Of a stretch of 64,000 bases of DNA, positions 47,949-64,000 are shown piece after piece (the stretch's first letter is position 1; every line of letters begins with the position of its first letter). Made by a program: the position numbers and the translations under genes. The stretch is from Leisingera sp. SS27 (GTDB lineage: Bacteria > Pseudomonadota > Alphaproteobacteria > Rhodobacterales > Rhodobacteraceae). The stretch covers positions 1-64,000 of the forward strand of contig NZ_JAQNCY010000010.1 in the NCBI RefSeq assembly GCF_028368855.1, written 5' to 3'. The notes beneath the pieces are model-generated. The model searched no databases. It was not told where the DNA came from and was given only the letters and a program-made list of their open reading frames with translations.

Positions 47949-48142
47949 TTGGTCCTCCCAATTGTTTCTGATGCCTCAGCGCCGGGGCCCTCCAGCCGCG
48001 GAAAGCTGAGCGGAGCACGCGGCGGGATGAAGCCCTCCCGATGGCCCGGCGCTCCGGCTTGGCCCTCCCCGCTGCCGTGGTGACGGGCAGCACACCTTCA
48101 AAAAAGCGGACCGGATCGGGGAGGAGACCCGGCCCGCAAAGA

Positions 48143-48174
48143 GAAACCCGGCGGCGCGCGAGCCGCCGGGTTTC
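48143..48174 (-). terminator. Terminator of the carnitine catabolic operon
   Basis: GAAACCCGGCGGC (48143-48155) and GCCGCCGGGTTTC (48162-48174) form a perfect 13-base stem with a 6-base loop, directly after the carnitine dehydrogenase stop. The minus-strand 3' side runs into TTTCTCTTT, fitting intrinsic termination. Confidence 0.85.
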
Positions 48175-48178
48175 CAAG

Positions 48179-49600
48179 TTATCCGCGCTGGCCCACGTGG
48201 CGCCCGGCGCCTTCGGGCAGCGGCAGGCCTGCGTGCGCCGCGGCAAAGGACGCCAGCTTGTCCGCCACCTCCGGCGACGGCAGCGAAGTGCCGCGCGCGG
48301 TCAGATCCATGTGCAACAGCAGCGTTTCCACCGTCGCCGCCAGCTTGCCCTCGGGGCCATGCAAGCGGTGGAACAGATGCATCTTCTTGCCTTCGCCTTG
48401 CAGCACCTGGGTGGTCACGGTCAGCGCATCACCCTCGTGCAGCTCATCCAGGAAGCGCACGTGGTTCTCGACCGTGAAATAGCTGCCGCCCGCGGCGATG
48501 TACGCGGCGTCGCATCCGATCATCTCCATGAACCGGTCGGTCGCCTGGGCCGAGGCCTCGGTGTAATGCGCCTCGTTCATGTGGCCGTTGTAGTCGGTCC
48601 AGCTCTGCGGCACCGGGCGGCTGACGGTGACCGGCAGCTCCACCGCGTCCGGCACGGGCAGCATTGCCTCATGGGTGTTGATGACACCGCCGGCACCGCT
48701 GCCGGATTTCTTCAGCGCCCGCATCATGCCGACCAGGTTGTCATCGCGCAGCCGCTCCAGTTCGCGGATCGGCATATGGCCCGATTGCGCGTCCGACTGG
48801 CCCGCGATCAGGTCGACCAGTTCCTCGGTGAACTCGGGCACATCCATCAGCTTGGTCCAGGGCCATTCCAGCGCCGGGCCGAACTGCGCCATGAAATGCT
48901 TCATGCCCGCTTCGCCGCCGGCAATCCGGTAGGTCTCAAACAGGCCCATCTGCGCCCACCTGAGGCCAAAACCCATGCGGATCGACTCGTCCAGCTCCTC
49001 GGTGGTGCAGATGCCGTCCTTGATCAGCCACAGCCCCTCGCGCCAGACCGCTTCCAGCAGACGGTCGGCGATATGCGCGTCGATCTCCTTGCGCACGGTC
49101 AGCGGGTACATCCCCACCTCGCGCAGCAAATCTGCGGCTTGCGCACAGGTCTCAGCATCGCCCACCAGCTCGACCAGCGGCAGCAGGTAAACCGGGTTGA
49201 ACGGATGCGCCACCACGGCGCGAGCGCCTTCGGCATTCAGTTCCGAGGGCTTGAAGCCGCTGGTAGAAGAGCCGATCACCGCGGCCGCCGGCGCATGCGC
49301 CTGGATCTGCGCGTGGATCTTGTGTTTCAGCTCCAGACGCTCCGGCACGCTTTCCTGGATCCAGGCAGCATCTGCCACCGCCTCGGCCATGTCCGCGTGG
49401 AAGGTCAGTTCACCCTCGGCCGGCAGCGCCTTGTCATAAAGCGACGGCAAGGAGCGGCGGGCGTTGGCCAGCACTTCGCCGATCTTGCGCTCCGCTTCCG
49501 GGTCCGGGTCGAACACCCGCACATTCCAGCCGTTCAAAAGGAACCGCGCGGCCCAGCCGCCGCCGATAACCCCGCCGCCGATGATTGCTGCTGTTTTCAT
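48179..49600 (-). CDS. cdhA: L-carnitine 3-dehydrogenase fused to a hotdog thioesterase domain
   Basis: 473 residues. The N-terminal NAD-binding domain (AAIIGGGVIGGGWAARFLLN) and 3-hydroxyacyl-dehydrogenase-like C-domain (VAHPFNPVYLLPLVELV) oxidise L-carnitine to 3-dehydrocarnitine. From about residue 322 a 4HBT-type hotdog domain follows (SWTDYNGHMNEAHYTEA), matching the betainyl-CoA thioesterase that is a separate protein (CdhB) in Pseudomonas. One polypeptide would thus supply the first and last steps of carnitine to glycine betaine. It is last in the operon after the cleavage enzyme. Confidence 0.9.
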   Translation of the reverse strand: MKTAAIIGGGVIGGGWAARFLLNGWNVRVFDPDPEAERKIGEVLANARRSLPSLYDKALPAEGELTFHADMAEAVADAAWIQESVPERLELKHKIHAQIQAHAPAAAVIGSSTSGFKPSELNAEGARAVVAHPFNPVYLLPLVELVGDAETCAQAADLLREVGMYPLTVRKEIDAHIADRLLEAVWREGLWLIKDGICTTEELDESIRMGFGLRWAQMGLFETYRIAGGEAGMKHFMAQFGPALEWPWTKLMDVPEFTEELVDLIAGQSDAQSGHMPIRELERLRDDNLVGMMRALKKSGSGAGGVINTHEAMLPVPDAVELPVTVSRPVPQSWTDYNGHMNEAHYTEASAQATDRFMEMIGCDAAYIAAGGSYFTVENHVRFLDELHEGDALTVTTQVLQGEGKKMHLFHRLHGPEGKLAATVETLLLHMDLTARGTSLPSPEVADKLASFAAAHAGLPLPEGAGRHVGQRG

Positions 49601-49688
49601 GATCTATCCTCTGATCGCCCTCCCGGTGCGCCCGCCGGTGCACAGGGGGTGTACAGGGGGTGCACGCATGGCACCCCCGCATTTCGGC

Positions 49689-50606
49689 TTACTTCGCCAC
49701 CGGCGCGCGCTTGGTCAGGCCCAGCTTCTCGCGGACCGCCTCCGGGCCGATGATCCGGGCGCCCATGCCCTCGATCACGCCGACCGCGCGCTCCACCAGC
49801 TGCGCGTTGGTGGCCAGCACGCCCTTGTCCAGGAACAGGTTGTCCTCAAGGCCGACCCGCACGTTGCCGCCCGCCAGCACCGACTGCGCCGCATAGGGCA
49901 TCTGATCGCGGCCAAGGGAGAACGCCGACCAGGTCCAATCCGACGGCACATTGTTGACCATCGCCATGAAGGTGTTGAGGTCGTTCGGCGCGCCCCACGG
50001 CACGCCCATGCACAGCTGCACCAAGGCGTTCGGCTCCAGAATTCCCTCTTTCACCAACTGCTTGGCAAACCACAGGTGGCCGGTGTCAAAGGCTTCGATC
50101 TCCGGCTTCACACCCAGATCGGTCATCATCTGACCCATGGCCCGCAGCATGCCGGGCGTGTTGGTCATCACGTAATCGGCTTCGGCAAAGTTCATTGTGC
50201 CGCAGTCGAGGGTGCAGATTTCCGGCAGGCATTCAGCGATATGGGCCATCCGCTCAGTGGCGCCGATCATGTCGGTGGCCGCCTCATTGACCGGCAGCGG
50301 AGCTTCGGTCGAGCCGAACACGATGTCGCCGCCCATGCCGGCGGTCAGGTTCAGCACCACGTCCACCTCGGAATCGCGGATGCGGTCGGTAAGTTCCCGG
50401 TAATACTCAAGTTTCCGGGACGGTGCACCGGTCTCCGGGTCGCGCACATGGCAATGCACAACAGCTGCGCCTGCCTTGGCGGCAGCAATCGCGGACTCGG
50501 CAATCTGCTTGGGCGAGCGCGGCACATGGGGGGATTTGTCCTGGGTGCCGCCAGAGCCGGTCACGGCGGCAGTGATGAAGACGTCTCGGTTCATGGTCAG
50601 GGGCAT
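49689..50606 (-). CDS. cdhC: Beta-keto acid cleavage enzyme (BKACE/DUF849), 3-dehydrocarnitine cleavage
   Basis: 305 residues. The family signature includes VFITAAVTGSGGTQDKSPHV near the N-terminus, AAKAGAAVVHCHVRDPETG with zinc-binding histidines, LNLTAGMGG and GGNVRVGLEDNLFL. BKACE enzymes exchange a beta-keto acid with acetyl-CoA to give acetoacetate and a new CoA ester. Beside carnitine dehydrogenase the substrate is 3-dehydrocarnitine and the product betainyl-CoA. AAAGGAG 8 bases before ATG 50606 sets the start. Confidence 0.9.
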   Translation of the reverse strand: MPLTMNRDVFITAAVTGSGGTQDKSPHVPRSPKQIAESAIAAAKAGAAVVHCHVRDPETGAPSRKLEYYRELTDRIRDSEVDVVLNLTAGMGGDIVFGSTEAPLPVNEAATDMIGATERMAHIAECLPEICTLDCGTMNFAEADYVMTNTPGMLRAMGQMMTDLGVKPEIEAFDTGHLWFAKQLVKEGILEPNALVQLCMGVPWGAPNDLNTFMAMVNNVPSDWTWSAFSLGRDQMPYAAQSVLAGGNVRVGLEDNLFLDKGVLATNAQLVERAVGVIEGMGARIIGPEAVREKLGLTKRAPVAK

Positions 50607-50624
50607 GGTCTCGCTCCTTTGGGG

Positions 50625-52571
50625 TTAAGCTTGCAGTTCAGGGTGATCCGCAAACAGCGCCAGCGCCTGCGGATTGGCGAGGCCGGAGAGGTTGCGGACA
50701 GGGTGTTTGTTCACCACGTCCCGCACCGCCAGCTCAGCGGTCTTGCCGGATTTGGTGCGCGGGATGTCAGTGACGGCGATGATCTTGGCGGGCACATGGC
50801 GCGGCGAGGCGTTACTGCGGATTTCCGTTTTGATCCTTGTGCTTAGCCCGTCGTCCAGTGCTGCACCTTCGGCGGGAACAACAAACAGCACCACCCGCAC
50901 GTCGTTGTCGATGCTCTGGCCCACCACCACCGCATCCGCGACCTCGCCGATCTTGTCGAGCTGCCGGTAGATCTCCGCCGTGCCGATCCGCACACCACCG
51001 GGGTTCAGCGTCGCGTCCGACCGGCCCAGCACCACATAGCCGCCGTGCTCCGTGCGGATGGTGAAGTCGCCCTGCCGCCAGATATCCGGATAGGTCTCGA
51101 AATAGCTGGCGCGATAGCGGGCATTGCCGGGGTCGTTCAGGAAGCGCGTCGGCATCGACGGATGCGCATTGCGGCAGACCAGCTCGCCCGCCACACCTTC
51201 AACCGGTTCACCCTGATCGTTCAGGGTTGCCACATCCAGCCCCAGCACCGGCGCCTGAATCTCACCCTGATGCACCGGCAGCAGCGGGCAGCCGCCAATG
51301 AAACAGCCCAGAATATCGGTGCCGCCGCAGATCGAGGCCAGCTGCACATCTGCCTTCCAGTCGGCATAGACATGGGCAAAGCCCTCGGGCGACAGCGGCG
51401 AGCCGGTGGACAGAACCACCCGCAGCGCAGCCAGGTCATGACTGTCCGCAGGCCGGTTGCGGCGCTTCAGCGAGGCATCGATGTATTTGGCGGAAATACC
51501 GAAATGCGTGACCTTCTCCGCCTCGGCCAGGTCAAACAGCCGGCGCATGCCCGGATACATCGGATTGCCGTCAAACAGCACGATCACGGCCTCGGAGGCC
51601 AGCGCCGCCACCTGCCAGTTCCACATCATCCAGTTGCAGGTGGTGTAATAGAACATCCGATCGCCCGGGCGCAGGTCGCAGTGCAGCTGCTGCTCCACCA
51701 GCATCCGCAAGAGGGTGCCGCCACCGGAATGCTCAATGCACTTGGGCTTGCCGGTGGTGCCGGAGGAGAACATCACGTAGAGCGGGTCGCGAAAGCCCAT
51801 CGGACGGCAGTCCAGTGCCGGGGCGTCCGCCTGTTTGAAAGCTTCATAGGCGGTCGTGCCCTCCGGCAAATCCGCGGCATCGCTTGCATAAGGCCAGACC
51901 ACGATCTGCTGAATCGAAGGCACCCGGGCGGCAACCTCTGTAATGGCGGCGCGGGTCTCAAACACCTTGCCGTTGTAGAAATAGCCGTCGGCGGCAAACA
52001 TCAGCTTGGGTTCGATCTGGCCGAAACGGTCAACCACCACGTCCGGCCCGCTTTCCGGCGCGCAGGATGACCAAACCGCCCCCAGCGAGGCCGCGGCCAG
52101 CATCGCCGCAACGGTCTGCGGCATGTTCGGGACATAGCCCGCGACGTGATCACCCGCCCCGATCCCGGCCTCCCGCAGGGCGGCAGCGAGCATTTCCACC
52201 TCGCGCTTCAGTTCGGCGCGGGTCCAGGCCATGCGGCGGCCGTCCTCCCCAATAAAAACAATCGCCTCGCGCCCGTCAGCGTTCTTCAGGAATGTCTCCA
52301 CGACGTTCATCTCCGCCCCGGGGAAGAAACGCACCTGCATCGGGTCCTGATCGGACAGCAGCGGCACTATGCCCTGATCCCCCATCAGACCGCAGAACTC
52401 CCAGGCCAGCGGCCAGAAGTCCTGCGGCTGCGCAACCGACCAGGCGTGCAGAGCGGCAAAACTGTCCAGCGGTGTTCCGGCAATCGCAGAAGCCTGTGCC
52501 ATGAAGCCGGACAGCAAGGGTTTGCGGCGCGCCGAAAGATCCGGCTGCCAGAGAAGAGGCGCAGTGGTCAT
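50625..52571 (-). CDS. Acetoacetate-CoA ligase
   Basis: 648 residues of the acyl-adenylate family. The P-loop is [20 protein letters not shown] (from about 266), followed by the AACS-typical [20 protein letters not shown] and later [12 protein letters not shown]. The C-terminal KTKSGK-like lysine block reads [12 protein letters not shown]. It activates acetoacetate, the by-product of the adjacent BKACE step, so that the carbon returns as acetyl-CoA. It is first gene of the carnitine operon, 18 bases from the next gene. Confidence 0.9.
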
Positions 52572-52609
52572 GGGGATATCAGTGGTTAGAGAGCGGGCGT
52601 CGGCGGATC

Positions 52610-52660
52610 GTCAAGGTTCTTGACTTCCTGCGTGATTAGCGCAGGAGTTGACGCTGCGCT
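52610..52660. promoter_or_regulatory. Paired dyads in the carnitine operon/regulator divergent region
   Basis: GTCAAG-GTT-CTTGAC (52610-52624) and AGCGCAG-N9-CTGCGCT (52638-52644 with 52654-52660) are perfect inverted repeats inside the 117-base divergent gap. They are candidate binding sites for the GlxA/CdhR-type regulator or parts of the two promoters. The assignment rests on position only. Confidence 0.4.
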
Positions 52661-52688
52661 TATACAGTTTCGGTCAAAAAACAGACAA

Positions 52689-53675
52689 ATGCCGCCAAAT
52701 CAGCCGCCCCTATTCGAATTCCTGCTGTTCGACGGGTTTTCCAACATGGTGCTGGCCAGCGCCATGGAGCCGCTGCGCGATGTGCGGATGAACTCCGGCC
52801 AGGAGGTCGCCGGCTGGCGGGTCAGCACCCTGGATGGCGCGCCCGTCACCAGCTCCAGCGGCTTACAGATTACCCCCGACGGGGCGTTCAGCGAGGATCA
52901 GGGCAACCGCACCCTGGTGCTGGTTGCGGGCTACCACGTGCGCGAACAGGTGACGCCTGCGCTGCTGACCCGGCTGCGCAACGCGGTGCGGCGGGCAGAG
53001 CGGGTGCTGGCGCTGGATACCGCCGCCTGGCTGCTGGCCGCCGCTGGCGTGCTGGACGGGCATAGCGCGACGATCCACTGGCAGGAGCTGGACGCCTTTG
53101 CCGAGACCTTCCCCAAGGTCGATGTTTCCACCGCGCGGTTTGTCCGGTCCGGCCCGTTCCTGACCTGCGGCGGCGCCAGCACCGCGCTCGACATGATGCT
53201 GAGCCTCATTCAGGATCTCTACGGCTCCGCCGCCGCCTTTGGCGCCTCCACCATGTTTGTCTACGACCCGTCGCGCCAGTCGGAGCTGAACCGCGGCGCC
53301 GCGCGGCTGGAGCAGAAAGGCTCGCCCAAGATCCTGAAGGCGGCGAACCTGATGGCAGAGACCATCGAAACCCCGCTAAGCACGGCGGCGCTGGCCAGTC
53401 GGGTGTCGCTGTCCGAACGCACGCTGGCGCGGGCTTTCCAGCGGGAACTCGGCATGACGCCAGGCAAATACTACAAGATGCTGCGGCTCCAGCACGCCCG
53501 TTACCTGTCGGAGGAAACCCATCTGAGCCTGGAGCAGATTGCCCTGCGCTGCGGGTTTTCCTCTGCCTCCTCTCTGGGGCGGTCGTTCAGCGGGCATTTC
53601 GGCCGGACCATCCGCGAGGCGCGGGGACAGGAGAAACCCTGGGTGCAGAAGACCGGCCGCAGTGGGCGCGGCTGA
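52689..53675 (+). CDS. cdhR: GlxA-type AraC family regulator (CdhR-like)
   Basis: 328 residues. The N-terminal class I glutamine-amidotransferase-like (DJ-1/PfpI) domain includes FEFLLFDGFSNMVLASAMEP and DTAAWLLAAAGVLDG. The C-terminal AraC domain has two HTHs (TPLSTAALASRVSLSERTLA; LSLEQIALRCGFSSASSLGR). Pseudomonas CdhR, activator of carnitine catabolism, has the same architecture and also sits by cdh genes. ATG 52689 matches the domain start. It is divergent from the acetoacetate-CoA ligase gene. Confidence 0.87.
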   Translation: MPPNQPPLFEFLLFDGFSNMVLASAMEPLRDVRMNSGQEVAGWRVSTLDGAPVTSSSGLQITPDGAFSEDQGNRTLVLVAGYHVREQVTPALLTRLRNAVRRAERVLALDTAAWLLAAAGVLDGHSATIHWQELDAFAETFPKVDVSTARFVRSGPFLTCGGASTALDMMLSLIQDLYGSAAAFGASTMFVYDPSRQSELNRGAARLEQKGSPKILKAANLMAETIETPLSTAALASRVSLSERTLARAFQRELGMTPGKYYKMLRLQHARYLSEETHLSLEQIALRCGFSSASSLGRSFSGHFGRTIREARGQEKPWVQKTGRSGRG

Positions 53676-53700
53676 AAACGGCATCCGGCCGGCAGCGGCC

Positions 53701-54597
53701 TTAGACGAGGCCCATGGCCACCGGTGAATGCGGCTCAATTCCAAGGTCGCTAAAACTTGCGACCCCTTCGCCCACGGTATTGTCGCGCCGCATCAGCGCG
53801 ATCTGTGCCGGGGTAACCGGAGGCCTGGGCAGCAGCGACAGCAGCGCCGCTGCTATCCGCCACAGAACAAACGGCACCGGCAGCAGCAGGCGGCGGCGGC
53901 CGGTCCGGGCGGCCAGCCGCTGCAGGATGTCACGGTAGGCCAGCACATCCGGCCCGCCCAGCTCAAACACCTTGCGCTGCGCCCGCGGGCCTTCCAGAAC
54001 ACGGGCCACCGCTTCCGCCACGTCCTCCACCCAGACCGGCTGCAGCCGGGTCTGGCCGCGGCCGAACAGCGGGATCACCGGCAGCTGCGCGGCAAGCCGC
54101 TGCAGATCCCCGAAGAACACGCCGCCCTCACAGAACATCACGCTGGGCCGCAGGATCACCGCATCCGGGCAGGCACTGCGCACCGCGGCCTCCCCCTCGG
54201 CCCTGGCCCGCACATAGGCCGAGGACGAATGCAGGCTGGCGCCGATGCCGGAGATTTGGATCAGCCGCTGGCCCGGGGTCTGCCGCACCAGCCGGGCAAC
54301 CCTGCGGGCGCCCTCCACATGCACGCTGTGAAAATCCTGCTGCCGGGTTTCCGTGTAAAAGCCGATGCAATTGACCACCCACCCGGCACCGCTGAGAGCA
54401 CGGGCCATGACGCTCTGCTGTGCCAGATCGGTCTGCACCTGCGCCACCCCCGGTTCCCACTCCTGCGGCGGCAGCGCCCCGGGCGCACGGGTGCCCGCGC
54501 TGACGCTGCAGCCCTGCTGCTGCAGACGCCGCACCACCCGGCGGCCGAGGAACCCCGTGCCGCCCAGCACGATCACTCTGCGCGGGCTGATCTGCAT
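53701..54597 (-). CDS. NAD(P)-binding epimerase/dehydratase-like protein (NDUFA9-type atypical SDR)
   Basis: 298 residues. The N-terminal Rossmann motif is VIVLGGTGFLGRRVVRRL (TGxxGxxG), with the VVNCIGFY and ISGIGASLHSSSAYVRARAEGE region giving a tyrosine/serine-containing active-site-like segment. ELGGPDVLAYRDILQRLA is typical of the NDUFA9-like subgroup. A function in quinone-linked or carbohydrate chemistry cannot be assigned. GGGAG lies 10 bases before the ATG. It is 81 bases downstream of dodecin in the same direction. Confidence 0.82.
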   Translation of the reverse strand: MQISPRRVIVLGGTGFLGRRVVRRLQQQGCSVSAGTRAPGALPPQEWEPGVAQVQTDLAQQSVMARALSGAGWVVNCIGFYTETRQQDFHSVHVEGARRVARLVRQTPGQRLIQISGIGASLHSSSAYVRARAEGEAAVRSACPDAVILRPSVMFCEGGVFFGDLQRLAAQLPVIPLFGRGQTRLQPVWVEDVAEAVARVLEGPRAQRKVFELGGPDVLAYRDILQRLAARTGRRRLLLPVPFVLWRIAAALLSLLPRPPVTPAQIALMRRDNTVGEGVASFSDLGIEPHSPVAMGLV

Positions 54598-54678
54598 CCG
54601 GAAACGCTCCCAATTTGGATCTGCGCCTCCAGATAGCGCATCCGCACCGCCGCGCCACCCGCCTGCGGCTCTTCCGGC

Positions 54679-54885
54679 TCAATCCAGCCGGAACCCGATC
54701 TTCAGGCCGACCTGGTAGTGGGCAACCTTGCCATCCTCGACATGGCCGCGGATTTCTCCAACCTCGAACCAGCCGATGTGGTCAATGGTCCTGGACGCCC
54801 GGGCAATCGCCCCGCTGATTGCGTCCTCAATGCTGGACTGCGAACTGCCCACCACATCCACTGTCTTGTAAACCGCGTCACTCAT
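54679..54885 (-). CDS. Dodecin family flavin-binding protein
   Basis: 68 residues, full length for the family. The tryptophan in IDHIGWFEVGEIRG stacks on flavin in characterised dodecins, and the C-terminal HYQVGLKIGFRLD strand carries the ligand glutamine. Dodecins form hollow dodecamers that store flavins. GGAGG 6 bases before ATG 54885 sets the start. The neighbouring operon at 55067 encodes several flavin enzymes, though the link may be fortuitous. Confidence 0.92.
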   Translation of the reverse strand: MSDAVYKTVDVVGSSQSSIEDAISGAIARASRTIDHIGWFEVGEIRGHVEDGKVAHYQVGLKIGFRLD

Positions 54886-54994
54886 CACACACCTCCACAC
54901 ACTCTGCGGCCAGATCAGCCGCAGTACAGGCTCCAGTGTGACCGGATCCGCGCCCGCGTCCAGAGTTTCCGCCGCTGCAACGCGTGGATCCCCT

Positions 54995-55050
54995 CTTCAT
55001 CTGGCCGGAAATATCCCCGGGGGAGCGCGAGGGGGCAGGCAGCCCCCTCG
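54995..55050 (+). repeat. Dispersed palindromic (REP-like) element, copy 2
   Basis: On the plus strand it reads CTTCATCTGGCCGGAAATAT, then CCCCGGGGGAGCGCGAGGGG, ending in a hairpin CGAGGGGGC (55028-55036), loop AGGCA, GCCCCCTCG (55042-55050). Order and wording match copy 1 at 22383-22432. It lies 17 bases beyond the aldehyde dehydrogenase stop and may double as its terminator. Confidence 0.65.
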
Positions 55051-55066
55051 TTCCCGCCTGCGCAAA

Positions 55067-56530
55067 TCAGCGCATCACAAAGGGGTCGGGGATCGGATCA
55101 TCGCTGGTGCGCAGCCAGACGGTCTTGACCTTTGTGTAATCGAGCGCCGCCTGCAGCCCGCCCTCGCGCCCGTGTCCTGACAGCCCGTGGCCGCCAAAGG
55201 GGGCAATCGGGCTGACCGCGCGGTAGGTGTTGACCCAGACAATGCCCGCCCGGATGCCCCGGATCATCCGGTGCGCGCGATTGAGGTTCCGGGTGAACAC
55301 CCCCGAAGCGAGGCCAAAAGCCGTGTTGTTGGCGATTTCCATCGCCTCAGCCTCGGTCTCGAACTCCACCACCGACAGCACCGGGCCGAAGAATTCGTTC
55401 GACAGGCAAGGCGCCTCCGGCGCGGCGGAACAATCGAGCACCGTTGGCGGGAAGAAGAACCCCTGCCCCTTCGGCACGGCGCCGCCAGTAACCAGCTTGG
55501 CACCTGCGGCAACCGAAGCTTCGATCAGCCGCAGCGCATGGTCGCGCTGTTTCAGGGTGCAAAGCGGTCCGACCTCGGTTGCCATGTCATCCGGCGCGCC
55601 GATCACCACCGCTTCGGCCTTCTCCTTCAGCCGCTGAAGGAAGGCATCCTTGATCCCCTTCTGGATCACCAGCCGCGATCCCGCGACGCAGCTTTGCCCT
55701 GTGGCAGCGAATATGCCGGAGACCTGCGCATTCACCGCACTTTCCAGATCGGCGTCGTCAAACACGATGAAAGGCGACTTGCCGCCCAACTCCAGCGAGG
55801 TGGAGGCGAGGTTCTCCGCCGAATTGCGCACGATATGGCGCGCGGTTTCCGGCCCGCCGGTAAAGGCCACATGGGCGACGCTCGCGTGGCTGGTCAGCGC
55901 GGCACCGGCCTCCGGCCCGCCGGTGATCACGTTCAGCACGCCGGGCGGAAAGCCCGCCTGATCAAAGATCCGGGCAAACTCCAGCATCGGCGCCGGACCT
56001 TCTTCCGAGGCTTTCAGCACCACCGTGCAGCCCGCCGCCAGCGCCGGGCCGATTTTCACCGCCGACAGAAACAGCTGCGAATTCCACGGCACGATGGCGG
56101 CCACCACCCCCACCGGCTCGCGCCGCAGCCAGACCTCCATGTCCGGCTTGTCGATCGGCAGATGCGCGCCCTCGATCTTGTCCGCCAGGCCCGCGTAATA
56201 GCGGTAATATTCGGACACATAGGCAATCTGGGCTGAGGTCTCGCGGATGATCTTGCCGGTGTCGCGGGTTTCCAGCTCTGCCAGCCGCGGGGCATTTTCT
56301 GCCACCAGATCAGCCAGCCGCATCAGCAGCTTGCCGCGCTGGGTGGCCGTCATCCCCGCCCATTCGGGGGAGAAGAACGCAGCCTCCGCAGCCCGCACCG
56401 CCCTGTCCACATCAGACGCGGAAGCGGCCGGCATCTGCGCCCAGGCCGTACCGGTTGCGGGATCCAGGCTTTCGAACGAGGCGACTGCGTCCTCAAACGC
56501 GCCGCCGATATACTGCTGGAAAGACTGCAT
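55067..56530 (-). CDS. Aldehyde dehydrogenase family protein
   Basis: 487 residues. The general-base glutamate is in SLELGGKSPFIVF (about 247) and the catalytic cysteine in FAATGQSCVAGSRL (about 281). The NAD-binding segment VPWNSQLFLSAVKIGPALAAG is present. It oxidises an aldehyde to its acid. It is the last gene of the five-gene minus-strand operon, 11 bases after the luciferase-like gene, implying that an aldehyde or semialdehyde is released by the upstream enzymes. Confidence 0.92.
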   Translation of the reverse strand: MQSFQQYIGGAFEDAVASFESLDPATGTAWAQMPAASASDVDRAVRAAEAAFFSPEWAGMTATQRGKLLMRLADLVAENAPRLAELETRDTGKIIRETSAQIAYVSEYYRYYAGLADKIEGAHLPIDKPDMEVWLRREPVGVVAAIVPWNSQLFLSAVKIGPALAAGCTVVLKASEEGPAPMLEFARIFDQAGFPPGVLNVITGGPEAGAALTSHASVAHVAFTGGPETARHIVRNSAENLASTSLELGGKSPFIVFDDADLESAVNAQVSGIFAATGQSCVAGSRLVIQKGIKDAFLQRLKEKAEAVVIGAPDDMATEVGPLCTLKQRDHALRLIEASVAAGAKLVTGGAVPKGQGFFFPPTVLDCSAAPEAPCLSNEFFGPVLSVVEFETEAEAMEIANNTAFGLASGVFTRNLNRAHRMIRGIRAGIVWVNTYRAVSPIAPFGGHGLSGHGREGGLQAALDYTKVKTVWLRTSDDPIPDPFVMR

Positions 56531-56541
56531 CTGCCGCTCCT

Positions 56542-57579
56542 TTACTGAAACGCGGGCATCACATCCGTGATGAACCGCTCAAGCGAGGCTTTCTTGCGCT
56601 CGAAACTCATGCTGCTGTCGATCCAGAACGCGTATTCATCATACCCCAGTGCCTCGTAGTTTTTCAGCCGTTCAATCACCGCCGCCGGTTCACCGATCAC
56701 CAGATCGCGCTCCATCGCCTCGGGCGAGTAGAACGGATGCGCGGCAATCTCCTCGTCACTCAGCGGATCAATCAGGCCCTGGCTGACGTCCCGCTTGTTC
56801 ATGAACCAGGCCCCGAAGTAGCAGTAGAAGCGATTGAGCTCCTCCGCCCCGCGTTTCACGTCGGCGGGGCTGTCGGCCACATAGGTGTGCTGCAGCAGCA
56901 TGATCTTGGGCCGCGGCACATCGCTGTGTTTGGCGCAGGCATCGTTGAATTTGCCCATCAGATCGGCGATTTCCCCGTCGCCTTTCCACAGCGGCGTCAC
57001 CTGCACGTTGCACCCCTGTGCAACCGCGAATTCATGGCTGTTCGGATCGCGCGCAGCCACCCAGATCGGCGGGCCGTCCTGCTGCAGCGGTTTCGGCGAG
57101 GACGTGGTTTTCGGGAAGGAATGGAACTCGCCTTCCTGCGCGTAATCGCCCTGCCACAACCCCTGTACTGCCGGGATCAGCTCGCGCATCCGCTGACCCG
57201 CCTCCCAGGCGTCCATACCCGGCATCATGCGCTCGTATTCATAAGAGTACGCGCCGCGCGCGATGCCCAGATCCAGGCGGCCCTCAGTGATGATATCGGT
57301 CATCGCCGCCTCACCGGCCAGCCGGATCGGATGCCAGAACGGCGCAATCACCGTGCCGGTGCCCAGGCGCACGTTCTTGGTCTGCCGCGCCACGTCAATG
57401 AGATTCAGGAACGGGTTCGGCGAGATGGTGAAATTCATCCCGTGATGCTCGCCGGTCCAAACCGCGTGCATGCCGCCGTCATCGGCGATTTTGCACAGCT
57501 GGATGAACTCGTCATAAAGCCGTTTCTGATCGTCCCCTTCGGAAATCCGCTCCATATGCGCAAAGAGTGAAAATTTCAT
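56542..57579 (-). CDS. LLM-class flavin-dependent monooxygenase (luciferase-like)
   Basis: 345 residues in a bacterial-luciferase-like TIM barrel. IADDGGMHAVWTGEHHGMNF at the N-terminus, GTGTVIAPFWHPIRLAGEAA and GRLDLGIARGAYSYEYER are the family blocks. Such enzymes use reduced FMN and O2 to oxidise a substrate, sometimes cleaving C-N or ring bonds. The reductant is very likely the product of the directly upstream flavin reductase gene, which overlaps it by 4 bases (ATGA, 57576-57579). Confidence 0.9.
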   Translation of the reverse strand: MKFSLFAHMERISEGDDQKRLYDEFIQLCKIADDGGMHAVWTGEHHGMNFTISPNPFLNLIDVARQTKNVRLGTGTVIAPFWHPIRLAGEAAMTDIITEGRLDLGIARGAYSYEYERMMPGMDAWEAGQRMRELIPAVQGLWQGDYAQEGEFHSFPKTTSSPKPLQQDGPPIWVAARDPNSHEFAVAQGCNVQVTPLWKGDGEIADLMGKFNDACAKHSDVPRPKIMLLQHTYVADSPADVKRGAEELNRFYCYFGAWFMNKRDVSQGLIDPLSDEEIAAHPFYSPEAMERDLVIGEPAAVIERLKNYEALGYDEYAFWIDSSMSFERKKASLERFITDVMPAFQ

Positions 57580-58502
57580 GCGCCCTTGCTCCCTGTCGCC
57601 ACGGGGCGGACCTGCCCTGTGGTCTGATTGCCATAATACACCCCGAAATTGCCCATCCGGGCTTCACTGGCGAACCGCTCCAGCATGGTGCACATCGCCG
57701 CATCGGCTATGTCCATCAGCGTGGATTGGGTCAGTGCCGTGAAAACACCCTTGGCCGGTGTGCCGCCGGCCGATTGGCACAGAAACGAGATGTGCTGATG
57801 TTCGCGCGCTTTGTCTTCGTAGACGGAATAGATGAACCCCGGCTCCGCCTCGACGCCGGTGTCCGCAATCAGCTTGGCCAGAGCGGCAGAGGCGCCCTCC
57901 TTGCCGACGCGGATTTCAGGCAGCGTCAGCTTGCCCTGGTCGTTGCCCATGAGCAGCACCTTGCCCTCATGCTCGATCAAGGCTGAGACAATCAGCTTGG
58001 CGCCTTGGGTCAGGGCTTCGGCCTCCGCCGCTGCTGTCACATAGGCGCCGCGGGCATATCCCAGCCCCGGCGCTGGCGAGGTCTCAAACGCCTCGACCCG
58101 GCCGATCAGGATCAGGTGGTCGCCTGCCTCAACCCGGTTGTGCATAGAGCAGTCGAACCAGGCGGAAACGCCCTCAAACACCGGGCTGCCCTCAGGCCCC
58201 TTCTGCCAGCTGACGGCGGCAAAACGGTCCTCAACGGGCCGGGCAAAGGTGTTGGAGACGTCCTTCTGGTCCTCTGCCAGCACATTGACGGCAAACCCAT
58301 CCGCCTGATCGAAGGCCGCATAATTACTGGAGGAATTGGCAATACAGACCAGCACCAGCGGCGGGTCCAGCGACACGGAGGTAAAGGAGTTGGCGGTAAA
58401 ACCGATGGGGTTTCCCTCGGGGTCATGCGTTGTCACCACGGTGACGCCGGTCATGAAAGTGCCGAATGCATTGCGCAGGGCGCGCGGGTCGATCTCGCTC
58501 AT
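57576..58502 (-). CDS. Flavin reductase fused to a degenerate Nudix-like domain
   Basis: 308 residues. Residues 1-165 are a flavin reductase split barrel (RNAFGTFMTGVTVVTTHDPE, IGFTANSFTSVSLDPPLVLV, ADGFAVNVLAEDQ). From about 178 the rest resembles a Nudix hydrolase (LIVSALIEHEGKVLLMG, GKLTLPEIRVGKEGASAALA), but the REx2EE catalytic residues are replaced (AK and AD). Standalone reductases are about 160-180 residues. It supplies FMNH2 to the monooxygenase. The extra domain may bind a nucleotide or flavin ligand. It overlaps both neighbours by 4 bases. Confidence 0.87.
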   Translation of the reverse strand: MSEIDPRALRNAFGTFMTGVTVVTTHDPEGNPIGFTANSFTSVSLDPPLVLVCIANSSSNYAAFDQADGFAVNVLAEDQKDVSNTFARPVEDRFAAVSWQKGPEGSPVFEGVSAWFDCSMHNRVEAGDHLILIGRVEAFETSPAPGLGYARGAYVTAAAEAEALTQGAKLIVSALIEHEGKVLLMGNDQGKLTLPEIRVGKEGASAALAKLIADTGVEAEPGFIYSVYEDKAREHQHISFLCQSAGGTPAKGVFTALTQSTLMDIADAAMCTMLERFASEARMGNFGVYYGNQTTGQVRPVATGSKGA

Positions 58503-59302
58503 GACGTTGCTCCTTCCGTATCCAGCCAGTCCTGCAAGGCGGCGTTGACCGCTGCGGGGGCAGTCAGGTTGACCATATGCCGGTGGCCTTCGATGACAAC
58601 CGCCCTGCCCTGCGGCGCGGCATCCGCCATGGCCTGTGCCATCGCGGGCGTCGAGTTCGGATCGCCATCGCCGGTCAGCGCCAGCAGCGGGCAGCGGATG
58701 CCCGCAAAGCCGTCCGCATAGGTGCTGTCGCCGCGGGCAAAGGCGGTATAGGCGGCGGCGTAACCTGCCAAGTTTACACCCGACAGCCATTCACCCACCT
58801 GCGCCCGCGCCGCTTGGTCGGCGGGGCTGTTGCCGAACCAGCGCGCCAGCGGCGTTTCCAGATCAAAGCTGCCCGCGCGGATTTCAGCCGCGCGCACCTC
58901 AACCGCAGCCCGTGCGTCAGCTGAACGGCGGAACACCCCGTTCAGCAGCGCCACGCGGGCCGCGTTTTCCGGATGGCTGACAGCATAGCCGCCGGCAATC
59001 AGCGCGCCCATGGAATGGCCCGCCAGACTGACCGGCCCCAGATCCAGCGCCTGCAGCACAGCATGCAGCCAGGCCACATAATCCGGCAGTTCGGTGCCCT
59101 CCGGCAGCGGCGCGCTGCCGCCATGGCCGGGCATGTCCAGCGCGATGACCTCATGGGTCTGCGCAAAAGCCTCAATCTGCGGCCCCCAGGCCGCCGACTG
59201 CATGCCAACCCCGTGGATCAGCACCAGCGGCGCCCCCTCCCCTGCCCTGAGGCAGGCAGCAGGGCCGTAAGGCTCAGACAGCTGCAGGGTTGTCGACGTC
59301 AT
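58499..59302 (-). CDS. Alpha/beta hydrolase
   Basis: 267 residues. The oxyanion region is PLVLIHGVGMQSAAWGPQIE, the nucleophile elbow is LAGHSMGALIAG (serine), and the catalytic histidine is probably in VIEGHRHMVNL near the end, with aspartate in ALTGDGDPNS. The size and gene company recall RutD of the pyrimidine Rut pathway, but sequence similarity is only at fold level as far as I can see. It overlaps the flavin reductase gene by 4 bases and the DUF1185 gene by 29 bases. Confidence 0.87.
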   Translation of the reverse strand: MTSTTLQLSEPYGPAACLRAGEGAPLVLIHGVGMQSAAWGPQIEAFAQTHEVIALDMPGHGGSAPLPEGTELPDYVAWLHAVLQALDLGPVSLAGHSMGALIAGGYAVSHPENAARVALLNGVFRRSADARAAVEVRAAEIRAGSFDLETPLARWFGNSPADQAARAQVGEWLSGVNLAGYAAAYTAFARGDSTYADGFAGIRCPLLALTGDGDPNSTPAMAQAMADAAPQGRAVVIEGHRHMVNLTAPAAVNAALQDWLDTEGATS

Positions 59303-59876
59303 GGCCCAGTTCCTTCAGGTCCTGATAGCGGTCGCCGATCCGGTGATGCGGCCGCCCGCCAATGGAGGCGCCAAGGGCGATCACGATCTCATCCGGGCCC
59401 GGCGCATCCGCGACCGACAGCTGGATGGTCAGGTAATGGCTGCGCCGCCCGCCGTCGTTCTTGTCCATCAGCGGGATCTGCAGCGAGGCATTCGCCGGCC
59501 CGCGGGTATTGGTGAAGGCCAGATAGGATTTCGCCCCCACCGCCTCGCGGAAGTGATTGCCAAAGCGCAGCGTGTGAATAAGGGCAGAGGCATGTTCCAC
59601 CTCGCCATTCACCCCGACGATGGCAGATTTGCCGTATCCCTCCACCTTATCGCCGCCGCCAGCGGCCTCCAGCACCATCGCCGTCAGCTTCTCGCCCAGA
59701 CCCGGCGCGCAGTCATGGATCGCCGGGCGCAGGTCCTCGACAAAGCCCTGCCCGGCCCAAGGGTTTTTGATCACCGCCACCGCGGCAATCATTTTCAGCG
59801 GCGTCTCAGCTGCCTTGCCGCCCTCGATCAGGGTTTCTTCGACATGCAGCAGCGTCTTGCGGATTTCGGCGGGCAT
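59274..59876 (-). CDS. DUF1185 / 'amino acid synthesis' family protein
   Basis: 200 residues, matching the PF06684 AA_synth family: IRKTLLHVEETLIEGGKAAE at the N-terminus, VIKNPWAGQGFVEDLRPAI, KSAIVGVNGEVEHASALIHT and GASIGGRPHHRIGDRYQDLK. The biochemical function is not established to my knowledge. It is the first gene of the five-gene operon, with AGGAAAG 9 bases before the ATG. A promoter with an embedded palindrome lies 28-64 bases upstream, and its stop region overlaps the hydrolase start. Confidence 0.85.
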   Translation of the reverse strand: MPAEIRKTLLHVEETLIEGGKAAETPLKMIAAVAVIKNPWAGQGFVEDLRPAIHDCAPGLGEKLTAMVLEAAGGGDKVEGYGKSAIVGVNGEVEHASALIHTLRFGNHFREAVGAKSYLAFTNTRGPANASLQIPLMDKNDGGRRSHYLTIQLSVADAPGPDEIVIALGASIGGRPHHRIGDRYQDLKELGHDVDNPAAV

Positions 59877-59910
59877 CGGCGGGTCTTTCCTGTCTGATTC
59901 CAGTTGCCAT

Positions 59911-59940
59911 AATATGGTATACCATAATACAGTATGTCAA
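59911..59940 (-). promoter_or_regulatory. Promoter of the five-gene operon with embedded GntR operator
   Basis: On the minus strand TTGACA (59940-59935), 18 bases, CATATT (59916-59911) form a sigma-70-like promoter. The perfect palindrome TATGGTATACCATA (59913-59926) covers the -10 box and part of the spacer. TGGTATACCA is the typical core bound by FadR-subfamily GntR repressors, so repression by the divergent GntR protein is expected. Confidence 0.75.
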
Positions 59941-59983
59941 TGCAGACTTGTTCCGCCCTGCCCCGGTTGCTATCGGAGGAAAC

Positions 59984-60658
59984 ATGACCAGCCCCATCAT
60001 GAGCAAAATCGACCACCAGCCGCAGACCCTGCGCGATATCGTGCAGGAACGGATGCGCGAGGCGATCATCTCCGGCCAGTTTGCCCCCGGCGAACGGCTG
60101 GTGGAGCGCCCCCTGTGCGACCAGCTCGGCGTCAGCCGCACCGTGGTGCGCGAAACGATCCGCTATCTGGAGGCAGAGGGGCTGGTGGAGATCCTGCCCG
60201 GCAAGGGGCCGATTGTGGCGCAGCTCACCTGGGCCGACGCGCGGCAGATCTACGATATCCGCCAGATGCTGGAGACCGCCGCCGCCACCGCCTGCGCGCA
60301 GCAAATCACACCGCAGCTGGCAGAACAGCTGAAAGCGGCGCTGCAGGACTTGCAGGAGGCCGTGGCCGCAGGCGTGCCCACCCCGATGCTGCAGGCCACA
60401 ACCGAGTTCTACCGGATCATCTTTGACGGCGCCGGCCACAACGTCGCCTGGGAAATCGCCCAGCGTCTGAACGGCCGCATCAGCCGGCTGCGGGCGGTGA
60501 CGCTCTCCACGGCAGAGCGCCAAAAACCCGGCCCCGCCCATATGCGGGATATCTGCGAGGCCATCGTCTCCGGCAATACAGAAGCCGCCCGCACCGCCAT
60601 CGAACAGCACCTGAGCGACGCCAAACACACCGCCGAGCGGCTGCTGCAAGAAAAATAG
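59984..60658 (+). CDS. GntR family (FCD/FadR-type) transcriptional regulator
   Basis: 224 residues. The winged HTH includes MREAIISGQFAPGERLVERP and LGVSRTVVRETIRYLEAEGL. The C-terminal all-helical FCD ligand domain contains IYDIRQMLETAAATACAQQ and a later HMRDICEAIVSGN segment with a metal-ligand histidine. GGAGG precedes ATG 59984. It is divergent from the DUF1185-led operon, with the predicted operator in the 107-base gap. Confidence 0.9.
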   Translation: MTSPIMSKIDHQPQTLRDIVQERMREAIISGQFAPGERLVERPLCDQLGVSRTVVRETIRYLEAEGLVEILPGKGPIVAQLTWADARQIYDIRQMLETAAATACAQQITPQLAEQLKAALQDLQEAVAAGVPTPMLQATTEFYRIIFDGAGHNVAWEIAQRLNGRISRLRAVTLSTAERQKPGPAHMRDICEAIVSGNTEAARTAIEQHLSDAKHTAERLLQEK

Positions 60659-60685
60659 CCGGTCTCCTCACTGGAAACCGGCTAT
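60655..60685 (+). terminator. Terminator overlapping the GntR gene stop
   Basis: ATAGCCGGT (60655-60663, including the TAG stop) pairs perfectly with ACCGGCTAT (60677-60685) across 13 bases, followed by CAAGGTTTGTTTGG. It separates the GntR gene from the convergent hutU. Confidence 0.6.
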
Positions 60686-60700
60686 CAAGGTTTGTTTGGC

Positions 60701-60718
60701 GGGCTGAATTATCAGCCC
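60701..60718 (-). terminator. Hairpin at the hutU 3' end
   Basis: GGGCTGA (60701-60707), loop ATTA, TCAGCCC (60712-60718) form a 7-base stem that includes the hutU stop codon. There is no T-run, so it is a modest candidate for ending the hut transcript. Confidence 0.4.
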
Positions 60719-62394
60719 AGGATGCCGGGCAGGTTCAGCCCGTGTTCGCGCGCGCAGTCCTTGGCGATGCCGTACCCCGCATCCGCGTGGCGCATGACGC
60801 CGGTGGCCGGATCGTTCCACAGCACCCGGCCGATGCGGCGGTCGGCGTCCTCGGTGCCGTCGCAGCAGATCACCACGCCGGAATGCTGCGAAAAGCCCAT
60901 GCCAACGCCGCCGCCGTGGTGCAAGGATACCCAGGTCGCGCCGGAGGCGGTGTTCAACAGCGCGTTCAAGAGCGGCCAGTCGGAGACAGCGTCGGAGCCG
61001 TCCATCATCGCCTCGGTCTCGCGGTTGGGCGAGGCCACGGAACCCGAGTCTAAATGGTCGCGGCCGATCACAACCGGCGCCGACAATTCGCCATTGCGGA
61101 CCATCTCGTTGAACGCGAGGCCGGCCTTGTGGCGGTCGCCGAGACCGATCCAGCAGATCCGCGCGGGCAGGCCCTGGAAGGCAATGCGCTCCTGCGCCAT
61201 GTCCAGCCAGCGGTGCAGGCCTTCATTCTCGGGGAACAGCTCCTTCATCTTGGCGTCGGTCTTGCGGATGTCCTCCGGGTCGCCCGACAGCGCGCACCAG
61301 CGGAACGGGCCGATGCCCTTGCAGAACAGCGGGCGGATATAGGCGGGCACGAAACCCGGGAAGTCAAAGGCGTTCTCCAGCCCCTCCTCCAGCGCCATCT
61401 GGCGGATGTTGTTGCCGTAATCAACGGTGGGAACACCCATCGCGTGGAAATCGCACATCGCCTTGACCTGAACCTTCATCGAAGCGCGGGCGGCCTTTTC
61501 CACCGCTTTCTTGTCACTCTCGCGGCGCTCCTTCCACTCGCCCATGGTCCAGCCCAGCGGCAGGTAGCCATTGACCGGGTCGTGGGCGGAGGTCTGGTCG
61601 GTCACGATATCTGGGCGGATGCCGCCCGCTTCGGCGCGCTTCACCAGCTCCGGGAAGATCTCAGCCGCGTTGCCCAGAAGGCCCACGGATTTTGCTTCGC
61701 CCGCGGCGGTCCAGCGCTCGATCATCTCCAGCGCCTCGTCCAGGGTCTCGGCCTTCTCGTCCAGGTATTTGGTGCGCAGGCGGAAGTCGATCGAGTCCGG
61801 GTTGCACTCCACCGCCAGGCAGCAGGCACCGGCAAACACAGCCGCCAGCGGCTGCGCTCCGCCCATGCCGCCAAGACCGCCGGTCAGGATCCACTTGCCC
61901 TTGAGGTCGCCGCCGTAATGCTGGCGGCCGGCCTCGGCAAAGGTCTCATAGGTGCCCTGCACGATGCCTTGGGTGCCGATATAGATCCACGACCCAGCGG
62001 TCATCTGGCCGTACATCATCAACCCTTTCTTATCGAGCTCGTTGAAGTGGTCCCAGTTGGCCCAATGCGGCACCAGGTTGGAGTTGGCGATCAGCACCCG
62101 GGGCGCGTCCTTGTGGGTCTGGAAAACGCCGACCGGCTTGCCGGACTGCACCATCAGGGTCTGGTCGTCGTCGAGGTTCTTCAGGGTCTCAACAATGAGG
62201 TCAAAGTCCTTCCAAGTGCGCGCGGCGCGGCCGATGCCGCCATAAACCACCAGCTCATGCGGGTTTTCGGCGACGTCGGGATGCAGGTTGTTCATCATCA
62301 TCCGCATCGGCGCCTCGGTGACCCAATGCTTGGCAGTGATTTCCGGGCCGGTGGGCGGGAAGATGTCGCGGGTGTTCTTGCGGGGATCGCTCAT
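60712..62394 (-). CDS. hutU: Urocanate hydratase HutU
   Basis: 560 residues, full length. Family blocks are [58 protein letters not shown] and the NAD/active-site cysteine region [23 protein letters not shown]. It converts urocanate to 4-imidazolone-5-propionate in histidine degradation. ATG 62394 overlaps the hutG stop by 4 bases; the frame is open to 62628 but that part is antisense-like hutG sequence. Confidence 0.96.
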
Positions 62395-63176
62395 ACCGAG
62401 GGCCTCCAGTTTTTGAGATCGGTCAGAATGTTGGTGAGATGGGCTCGCAGCTGTCCTGCGCGCTCCGGCAGATAGGTCCAGGGGGGGCTCTCCTGGCAGT
62501 AGGTGGCCTGCGCCAGTTCCATCTGGATCGCGTGCAGGCCGTCCGCAGGCCGCCCGTAATGGCGGGTGGTCCAACCGCCCTTGAAGCGCCCGTTCAGGGT
62601 GGAGGTATAGCCCTCCGCCGCCTCGCAATGGGCCACAGTCAGCGCCTCAATGGCTGCGTCACAGGTTTCACCCATGTTGGTGCCCACGTTGAAATCCGGC
62701 AGGCGGCCTTCGAACAGGAAGGGGATATCGCCGCGGATCGAGTGGCAATCGTACAGTATGGCAAAACCGTGGATTGCCTTCACCCGCTCCAGCTCCGCCA
62801 TCAGCGCCGCGTGATAGGGCGCGTGATAGGCGTCGCGGCGGCGGGTGATTTCCGCCTCATCGGGTTCCTTGCCCTCCTGCCAGATCGGCAGCCCGTCAAA
62901 ATCCGTGAGCGGCACCAGAGTAGTGGTGTTTTGCCCGGGATAGAGACTGAGTCCGGCGGGATCGCGGTTCACGTCGATCACATAGCGGTGGATCGGCGTG
63001 CGGACGGTCGTGATGTCCTCCACCAGCCTGGAATACAGGTCGTGGATATGCCAGTCTGTGTCCGCCAGCGCCCTGCCCGTCTCATTGAGGCACTCCCAAA
63101 CCTCCGGCGGCACATCGGTGCCGGTGTGGGGCAGCCCCAGCACCAGCGGCGAGGCGCCTTGGGTCACTTCGATCAT
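62391..63176 (-). CDS. hutG: N-formylglutamate deformylase HutG
   Basis: 261 residues of the N-formylglutamate amidohydrolase family: [60 protein letters not shown]. It hydrolyses N-formylglutamate to formate and glutamate, the last step of the HutF-HutG route. It overlaps hutH by 4 and hutU by 4 bases. A HutF deiminase and HutI are expected outside the window. Confidence 0.93.
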
Positions 63177-64000
63177 GCCGCCACCTTCACGCCAGCGGCA
63201 TCCGCCACGCGGCCCGCGCGGACCATGGCGCTGGCGGTTTCAATGTCGGGCGCCAGATAGCGGTCCTCGGCCAGCGCGGGGATCTCCTCGCGCAGCATCG
63301 CCAGCACGTCCTGCAAGCGGGCCGAGGTCTTGAGCGGCGCACGCGCCTCAACCCCTTGCGCGGCACAGAGCATTTCGACGCCCAGGATCACCGACAGATT
63401 TGCATTCATCTTCGCCAGACGCAGCGCGCCGTGGGCGGCCATCGACACGTGGTCCTCCTGGTTGGCCGAGGTCGGGGTCGAGTCAGTCACGCAGGGGTTC
63501 GCGAGATGCTTGTTCTCGCTCATGAGCGCGGCAGTGGTCACCTCGGCGATCATGAAGCCGGAGTTCAGACCGGGATCGGGCGTCAGGAACGGCGGCAGGT
63601 CGTGGCTGAGGGTCGGGTCCACCATCAAAGCCACCCGGCGCTGCGCAATGGCGCCGATTTCAGCCACCGCCAGCGCAATCTGGTCAGCAGCAAAGCCTAC
63701 GTATTCGGCATGGAAGTTGCCGCCGGAAACGATCCGGCCTTCATTCACCAGCACCAGCGGGTTGTCGGTGACGGCATTCGCTTCGATCTCCAGCGTTTTG
63801 GCGGCCATCCGCAGCACGTCCAGCGCCGCGCCCACCACCTGCGGCTGGCAGCGGATGCAATAGGGATCCTGCACGCGGGTGTCATCCTCGCGGTGGCTCT
63901 CGCGGATTTCGGACCCGTCCATGATGGCGCGCATTTCGCGGGCCACGTCGATCTGCCCGGCATGGCCGCGAAGGGAGTGGATGTCGGCCACCAGCGGCGC
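63173..64000 (-). CDS. hutH: Histidine ammonia-lyase HutH (5' part outside window)
   Basis: The C-terminal 275 residues are in the window. They show [39 protein letters not shown], the [19 protein letters not shown]-like segment and [19 protein letters not shown], all typical of HutH. The MIO-forming Ala-Ser-Gly lies upstream of base 64000. It deaminates histidine to urocanate, first step of the hut pathway, and is transcribed into hutG and hutU. Confidence 0.95.

Follow-up and report, generated by a model that had tools for sequence, protein, structure and literature searches.

An operon of Leisingera sp. SS27 that is very probably orthologous to the trigonelline operon tgn, and its predicted GntR operator

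The window analysed here, a stretch of 64,000 nucleotides that is part of contig 2 (143,307 bases) of the 4.80 Mb genome of Leisingera sp. SS27, contains five genes on the minus strand (55067-59876) and a divergent gene for a GntR regulator of the FCD type (59984-60658), by the coordinates of their open reading frames (ORFs). We consider it very probable that these genes are the orthologue of tgn, the operon for trigonelline (N-methylnicotinate), which occurs in plants and algae. By this orthology, the substrate of the operon is very probably trigonelline, since the five genes match the known machinery for trigonelline ring opening and use. A preliminary description of the locus had spoken of an unknown substrate, and this is replaced by a named and testable one. 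The system is already known, and its identification is not very surprising and mostly an ordinary finding. What sequence comparison adds here is a likely operator of the GntR regulator, a Nudix-like reading of the C-terminal part of the flavin reductase and the apparent orthology of a crystallised protein, PDB entry 3RH7, to TgnA.

In Acinetobacter baylyi DSM 14961, a divergent FCD-type GntR gene is followed by tgnF, D, A, B and C in an order and orientation identical to those of the window, with identities of 48% for the regulator and 67, 54, 51, 72 and 71% for F, D, A, B and C, respectively. These gene-by-gene alignments span 97-100% of each window protein, including 98% for TgnA and 100% for TgnB. 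Compared with named plasmids, the oxygenase matches over its whole length, at 73% identity, a gene on a plasmid of Acinetobacter sp. PK01 that is annotated as tgnB, 'flavin-dependent trigonelline monooxygenase oxygenase component'. The gene order on this plasmid is also that of the window, with a divergent GntR gene followed by genes for an amino acid synthesis family protein and an alpha/beta hydrolase, tgnA, tgnB and tgnC, and the gene collinear with tgnC is annotated as (Z)-2-((N-methylformamido)methylene)-5-hydroxybutyrolactone dehydrogenase. In a midpoint-rooted tree of the oxygenase, calculated from 47 of 103 prepared rows with RutA left out and compared pairwise only, the window sequence shares a 35-row clade (support 100/99) with those of A. 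baylyi and Sinorhizobium meliloti. Three rows stand beside this clade and nine distant rows form another group (100/100), whose deep join with the group of the window unites long branches and may be false according to a warning of the tree program, which names the 35-row clade merely as one side of that join. The preliminary description had proposed a distinct pathway with a substrate not known; the clade shared with A. baylyi and the collinearity of the whole operon instead place the oxygenase inside a characterised system, which is Tgn and not Rut.

With regard to gene content, both components of the oxygenase, TgnA and TgnB, are present, TgnC and TgnD are encoded in the same operon, and TgnF and the divergent GntR regulator are found as well. 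The A. baylyi cluster continues with genes for an NCS1-type permease (PF02133), a further protein and a succinate-semialdehyde dehydrogenase (SSADH, the role of TgnE), which the window operon lacks; the best SSADH homologues in Leisingera sp. SS27 (58% and 55%) are located on other contigs. Neither tgnE in the operon nor an uptake system adjacent to it was found among the window genes. We do not treat the presence of tgnE in the cluster as defining, because in 44 of the 80 related loci described below the fetched stretch likewise shows nothing TgnE-like above 40%, nor that of an uptake system, because the transporters that relatives carry beside the operon vary in type (NCS1, ABC or BCCT) and are thus not conserved. 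The cluster on the S. meliloti plasmid pSymA has the F-D-A-B-C order at 51-74% identity as well, but differs in that its GntR gene (44%) points in the same direction as the operon and in that genes for a NIPSNAP protein, an ABC transporter and an SSADH follow. Rhizobia use trigonelline through the trc genes of their sym plasmid.

The conservation of the arrangement was assessed in 80 loci, the best 80 of the 559 relatives that a search with an Acinetobacter TgnB yielded; being the best-ranked relatives of that query, they are biased towards genuine tgn clusters and do not represent independent samples. They include loci from Acinetobacter, Burkholderia, Paraburkholderia, Caballeronia, Xanthomonas, Rhizobiaceae, Pseudovibrio and Rhodobacterales. 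F-D-A-B-C are contiguous on one strand in 73 of the 80, so the arrangement is not due to chance. In 60 loci, a GntR homologue is found no more than 1.5 kb from F, divergently in 57. The order test failed in seven loci (L078, L089, L090, L093, L094, L095 and L126), two of which, L078 and L126, each lack one gene match in the fetched stretch. In the five others, from Caballeronia and Burkholderia, the best tgn matches are spread over both strands, with each reductase match (42%) on the minus strand, and the operon is thus rearranged.

The first gene of the operon (59274..59876, minus strand) encodes the TgnF-like AA_synth/DUF1185 protein of 200 aa (PF06684, 235.8 bits), which is the sole PF06684 match in the Leisingera sp. 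SS27 genome at E ≤ 0.001. It is followed on the same strand by the genes for the TgnD-like alpha/beta hydrolase (58499..59302; 267 aa, Abhydrolase_1), the TgnA-like flavin reductase (57576..58502; 308 aa, PF01613), the TgnB-like oxygenase of the FMNH2-dependent luciferase-like monooxygenase (LLM) class (56542..57579; 345 aa, Bac_luciferase) and, as last gene, the TgnC-like aldehyde dehydrogenase (55067..56530; 487 aa, Aldedh, 540 bits). The regulator gene on the plus strand (59984..60658; PF00392 and PF07729) is better started at the ATG at 59984, which is preceded by GGAGG at 59975-59979 and yields 224 aa, than at the TTG at 59948 of the mechanical ORF, and the reductase is read from 58502 rather than as the 404-aa mechanical ORF. 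The six genes and their families, as they had been described beforehand, were all found again by ORF and Pfam analysis. The description of the operon as tightly overlapping holds for three of the four junctions (F/D by 29 bp, D/A and A/B by 4 bp each), while B and C are 11 bp apart. Read by eye, the candidate catalytic residues Ser (GHSMG), Asp (GDGDPN) and His (GHRHMV) of the hydrolase are kept in the aligned tgn-type relatives, and the alignment of the aldehyde dehydrogenase retains the GQSC and ELGGKS motifs. An Rfam scan of 52000-64000 gave no match at the gathering threshold.

The extra domain of the reductase that had been noticed earlier is borne out, since the Flavin_Reduct domain covers residues 14-156 of 308 and the C-terminal half lies beyond the Pfam assignment. 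After residue 154 no Pfam match was obtained, and Pfam searches with six single tails gave nothing convincing. A profile of 22 reductase tails, by contrast, matched 3RH7 at 7.6e-33 and then a run of NUDIX/MutT proteins, the first of which was the NUDIX hydrolase 3cng (5.2e-06), which suggests that the extra domain is Nudix-like. Because a classical Nudix box is not evident by eye, a binding or regulatory role of this tail appears likelier than hydrolysis. PDB entry 3RH7, deposited as 'Hypothetical oxidoreductase', a name that carries no function, resembles the window reductase along its full length (4.1e-93 over residues 4-303). Since it also matches the reductase of this operon from S. meliloti pSymA with 685 bits over all 311 residues, it appears to be a TgnA orthologue of which a crystal structure is already available under that neutral name. 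This would give an unlabelled crystal structure a likely function, under which it can be relabelled.

By analogy to the characterised system, the Nudix-tailed reductase would make reduced flavin mononucleotide (FMN), with which, and with O2, the LLM oxygenase would open the N-methylpyridinium ring of trigonelline to give an N-methylformamido-methylene hydroxybutyrolactone. The aldehyde dehydrogenase would then oxidise the aldehyde equivalent to (N-methylformamidomethylene)succinate, from which the hydrolase would release succinate semialdehyde, methylamine, formate and CO2. An SSADH encoded elsewhere in the genome would take the role of TgnE and pass the carbon on as succinate, aided by the DUF1185 protein as a putative helper, and the divergent GntR regulator would repress both promoters through TGGTATACCA and release them when substrate or product is present. 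The scheme builds on the gene content, gene order, orthology and conserved site of this analysis, from which we infer the substrate and the repression by GntR; the electron donor, the product of the TgnC step and the products of the TgnD step (formate, methylamine, CO2 and succinate semialdehyde) follow general background on the pathway. Among PDB entries, RutD (3v48) was the first match of the hydrolase (1.1e-15), and the alpha-(N-acetylaminomethylene)succinic acid hydrolase 3kxp, whose reaction is an analogue of the one proposed for TgnD, was found at 1.8e-13. The later products fit both this match and the name of TgnC in PK01, but the match is a hint only, because RutD and other hydrolases score slightly higher in the same list. 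The chemistry proposed in the preliminary description, in which a two-component oxygenase using FMNH2 and O2 opens a nitrogen ring and a hydrolase and aldehyde oxidation follow, is consistent in outline with this scheme; its claim of a distinct pathway is not.

Parts of the literature are in line with these assignments. According to passages of PMC8269262, bacteria break down trigonelline by first opening its ring with TgnA/TgnB, for which Perchat et al. 2018 is cited. The same passages state that trigonelline is detected in the ocean at picomolar levels, and that it supports growth of a model roseobacter, Ruegeria pomeroyi DSS-3, more effectively than homarine does. A passage of PMC4213383 merely lists trigonelline as one of the ADP1 metabolites. 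According to an excerpt of PMC7913881, TgnF of A. baylyi ADP1 stimulates the SSADH TgnE, and a DUF1185 protein is called TgnF-homologous there.

The 107-bp intergenic stretch between F and the GntR gene contains TATGGTATACCATA, in which we predict the operator TGGTATACCA (59915..59924, no strand assigned). This core lies within 200 bp before F in all 79 loci that have an F match (L126 lacks F and is outside this count), exactly in 59 and with one mismatch in the other 20, whereas single-base shuffles, 20 per locus, gave no exact and 11 one-mismatch occurrences in 1580. The site is thereby common to loci of alpha-, beta- and gammaproteobacteria. It overlaps both a promoter-like site of the operon on the minus strand (TTGACA-18-CATATT, 59911..59940), which scored 10/12 in a consensus scan, and one of the regulator on the plus strand (TTGCCA-18-TACAGT, 59904..59933), which scored 9/12, and lies inside both; sites of the operon type were found four times in 54500-61000, compared to 1.0 expected. 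These findings point to TGGTATACCA as the likely operator of the GntR regulator, through which it may repress both promoters. In A. baylyi, the site before F differs from the exact one of Leisingera sp. SS27 by one mismatch, and an exact copy is located 94 bp before its SSADH gene; in A. soli and a further four loci of Acinetobacter (L057, L058, L070 and L082), an exact copy is likewise found within about 120 bp before the SSADH match. In the whole Leisingera sp. SS27 genome, TGGTATACCA occurs once, at this locus, and its reversed letters three times, and the longer pattern with one mismatch allowed also gives this place only, so that no second target was detected. The operator was thus rejected as a route to a wider regulon in this strain, because of its single exact copy; as a conserved site it offers a handle for finding tgn regulons.

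Several points weigh against the assignment to trigonelline. The identities of reductase and hydrolase to A. baylyi are only 51-54%, and the operon contains neither tgnE nor a transporter gene. A search of the Leisingera sp. SS27 genome with the A. baylyi permease gave no match at 1e-10, a result that, having no positive control, is uninformative. The comparison was made with the A. baylyi type strain and not with ADP1 itself, the source strain of the Tgn proteins according to PMC7913881, and the tgn names on the PK01 plasmid stem from annotation and not from an assay. Orthology does not prove a substrate, and related LLM clusters exist at 36-54% identity. Moreover, a TgnF-like effect was not reproduced with the DUF1185 protein HcdD in the experiments excerpted from PMC7913881, and trigonelline along a seawater transect amounted to 1 to 300 pM, far below homarine, in the cited portion of PMC8269262.

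The latter point bears on the possibility that the roseobacter operon performs the same chemistry on another N-methylpyridinium substrate, homarine (N-methylpicolinate) or another pyridinium betaine. Homarine is reported to be far more abundant than trigonelline in the sea (in parts of PMC8269262), and a passage of PMC13390433 cites a 2026 publication on a conserved homarine pathway in bacteria. Such a specificity is nevertheless improbable given the 72% identity of the oxygenases and the full collinearity with A. baylyi, and the same passages of PMC8269262 consider TgnA/TgnB, on steric grounds, unlikely to accept homarine. The family also contains a separate LLM group (36-43% identity), which stands in other gene settings where looked at and is a likelier place for other substrates. 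A broader version, to which we assign a similarly small chance, holds that the tgn architecture is kept but that the roseobacter operon acts on different or wider marine pyridinium betaines, in which case the DUF1185 protein and the Nudix-like tail might be general accessories of a larger superfamily of systems opening N-heterocycles, with tgn as one branch.

Less probable still is a Rut-like pathway for pyrimidines or one that acts on an imidazole compound. The window operon shares with E. coli rutA-G the logic of LLM oxygenase, flavin reductase and alpha/beta hydrolase; RutF and RutD align with the window proteins at 36% over 157 aa and 27% over 238 aa, respectively, the hydrolase finds its best PDB match in RutD, and hut genes adjoin the operon. 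RutA, however, matches the oxygenase at just 25% over 149 of 345 residues (E 1.9e-05), its 25 NCBIfam matches include no RutA model, and the RutF and RutD models stay far below their equivalog cut-offs (102.1 bits against 254.75, and 63.3 against 238.5). The five genes include no rutB, rutC, rutE or rutG type, in agreement with the earlier remark that equivalents of RutB, RutE and RutG are absent, and the DUF1185 and aldehyde dehydrogenase genes have no Rut counterpart. The hint at an imidazole compound that had been drawn from the adjacent hut genes is not sustained: no hut annotation is found within 9-10 kb on each side of the operon in Ruegeria sp. SCSIO 43209, Ruegeria sp. B32, S. meliloti and Burkholderia multivorans, and in L. 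methylohalidivorans hutU is near the operon but about 6 kb off, with ugp genes between, so the hut neighbour looks incidental. As a side observation, a minus-strand terminator-like hairpin of 14 pairs lies at 60654-60686 between the hut genes and the GntR gene and fits hut being a separate transcript, but such sites are not rare by chance (7 found compared to 4.2 expected in 54500-61000).

Finally, the DUF1185 protein might belong to amino acid synthesis, as its Pfam name says, and stand here by chance. Parts of the structural paper on BB2672 and SPO0826 (PMC2954203), which describe the fold as hexameric and similar to Bacillus chorismate mutase, propose a role in amino acid metabolism from neighbouring branched-chain amino acid transporter genes. 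A chance neighbour is hardly credible for the first gene of an operon, whose end overlaps the next gene and which has a counterpart of 67% identity in equal position in A. baylyi and accompanies the other four genes in 73 of the 80 loci. Moreover, genes of the DUF1185 type are found with the distant LLM clusters as well.

The trigonelline-type oxygenase is carried, at 65-100% identity, by 49 of 295 sampled genomes of the family of Leisingera sp. SS27 (its own included), which gives its frequency in the family at a threshold of at least 65%. In a further 28 of the 295, only a more distant relative of 36-43% occurs. No identities fall between the two ranges, and two of the 49 have both kinds. 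Within the genus, the oxygenase was found at 91-97% identity in 20 of 20 other genomes sampled, and seventeen named Leisingera plasmid records carry it. Two same-genus genomes (G005 and G020) contain both LLM groups. The distant group, represented by nine loci (L134-L139 and L146-L148) at 36-44% identity to the window, has its own DUF1185, aldehyde dehydrogenase and alpha/beta hydrolase genes in all nine, in rearranged order, and six of them also have a reductase that aligns over the greater part of its length; where annotated, genes for RidA, a CoA-transferase, an enoyl-CoA hydratase or an ABC transporter are nearby. For some of these clusters, homarine is a candidate substrate. In Parasedimentitalea marina (L146:4028-6151), a reductase-like domain with 38% identity to the window reductase seems to be fused to an annotated CoA transferase of 707 aa. 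An intermediate LLM group at 51-54% (L140, L141 and L142) comes from genomes of other families; TGGTATACCA is found within about 200 bp before the oxygenase in L141 and L142, and a GntR gene at 40-41% in L140 and L142.

With respect to uptake, four loci from Pseudovibrio and one from an uncultured Rhodobacteraceae have a BCCT gene after tgnC, and the Pseudovibrio BCCT is 65% identical to a BCCT encoded in the window at 46257-47948. The latter was rejected as a specific partner of the operon, since it sits among genes that read as a carnitine operon. By reading of the sequences, this carnitine-like operon (46257-52571, minus strand) also comprises carnitine-dehydrogenase-like (48179-49600), BKACE-like (49689-50606) and acetoacetyl-CoA-synthetase-like (50625-52571) genes, and it is adjoined by a gene for a GlxA-type regulator with DJ-1/PfpI and HTH_18 domains on the plus strand (52620-53675).

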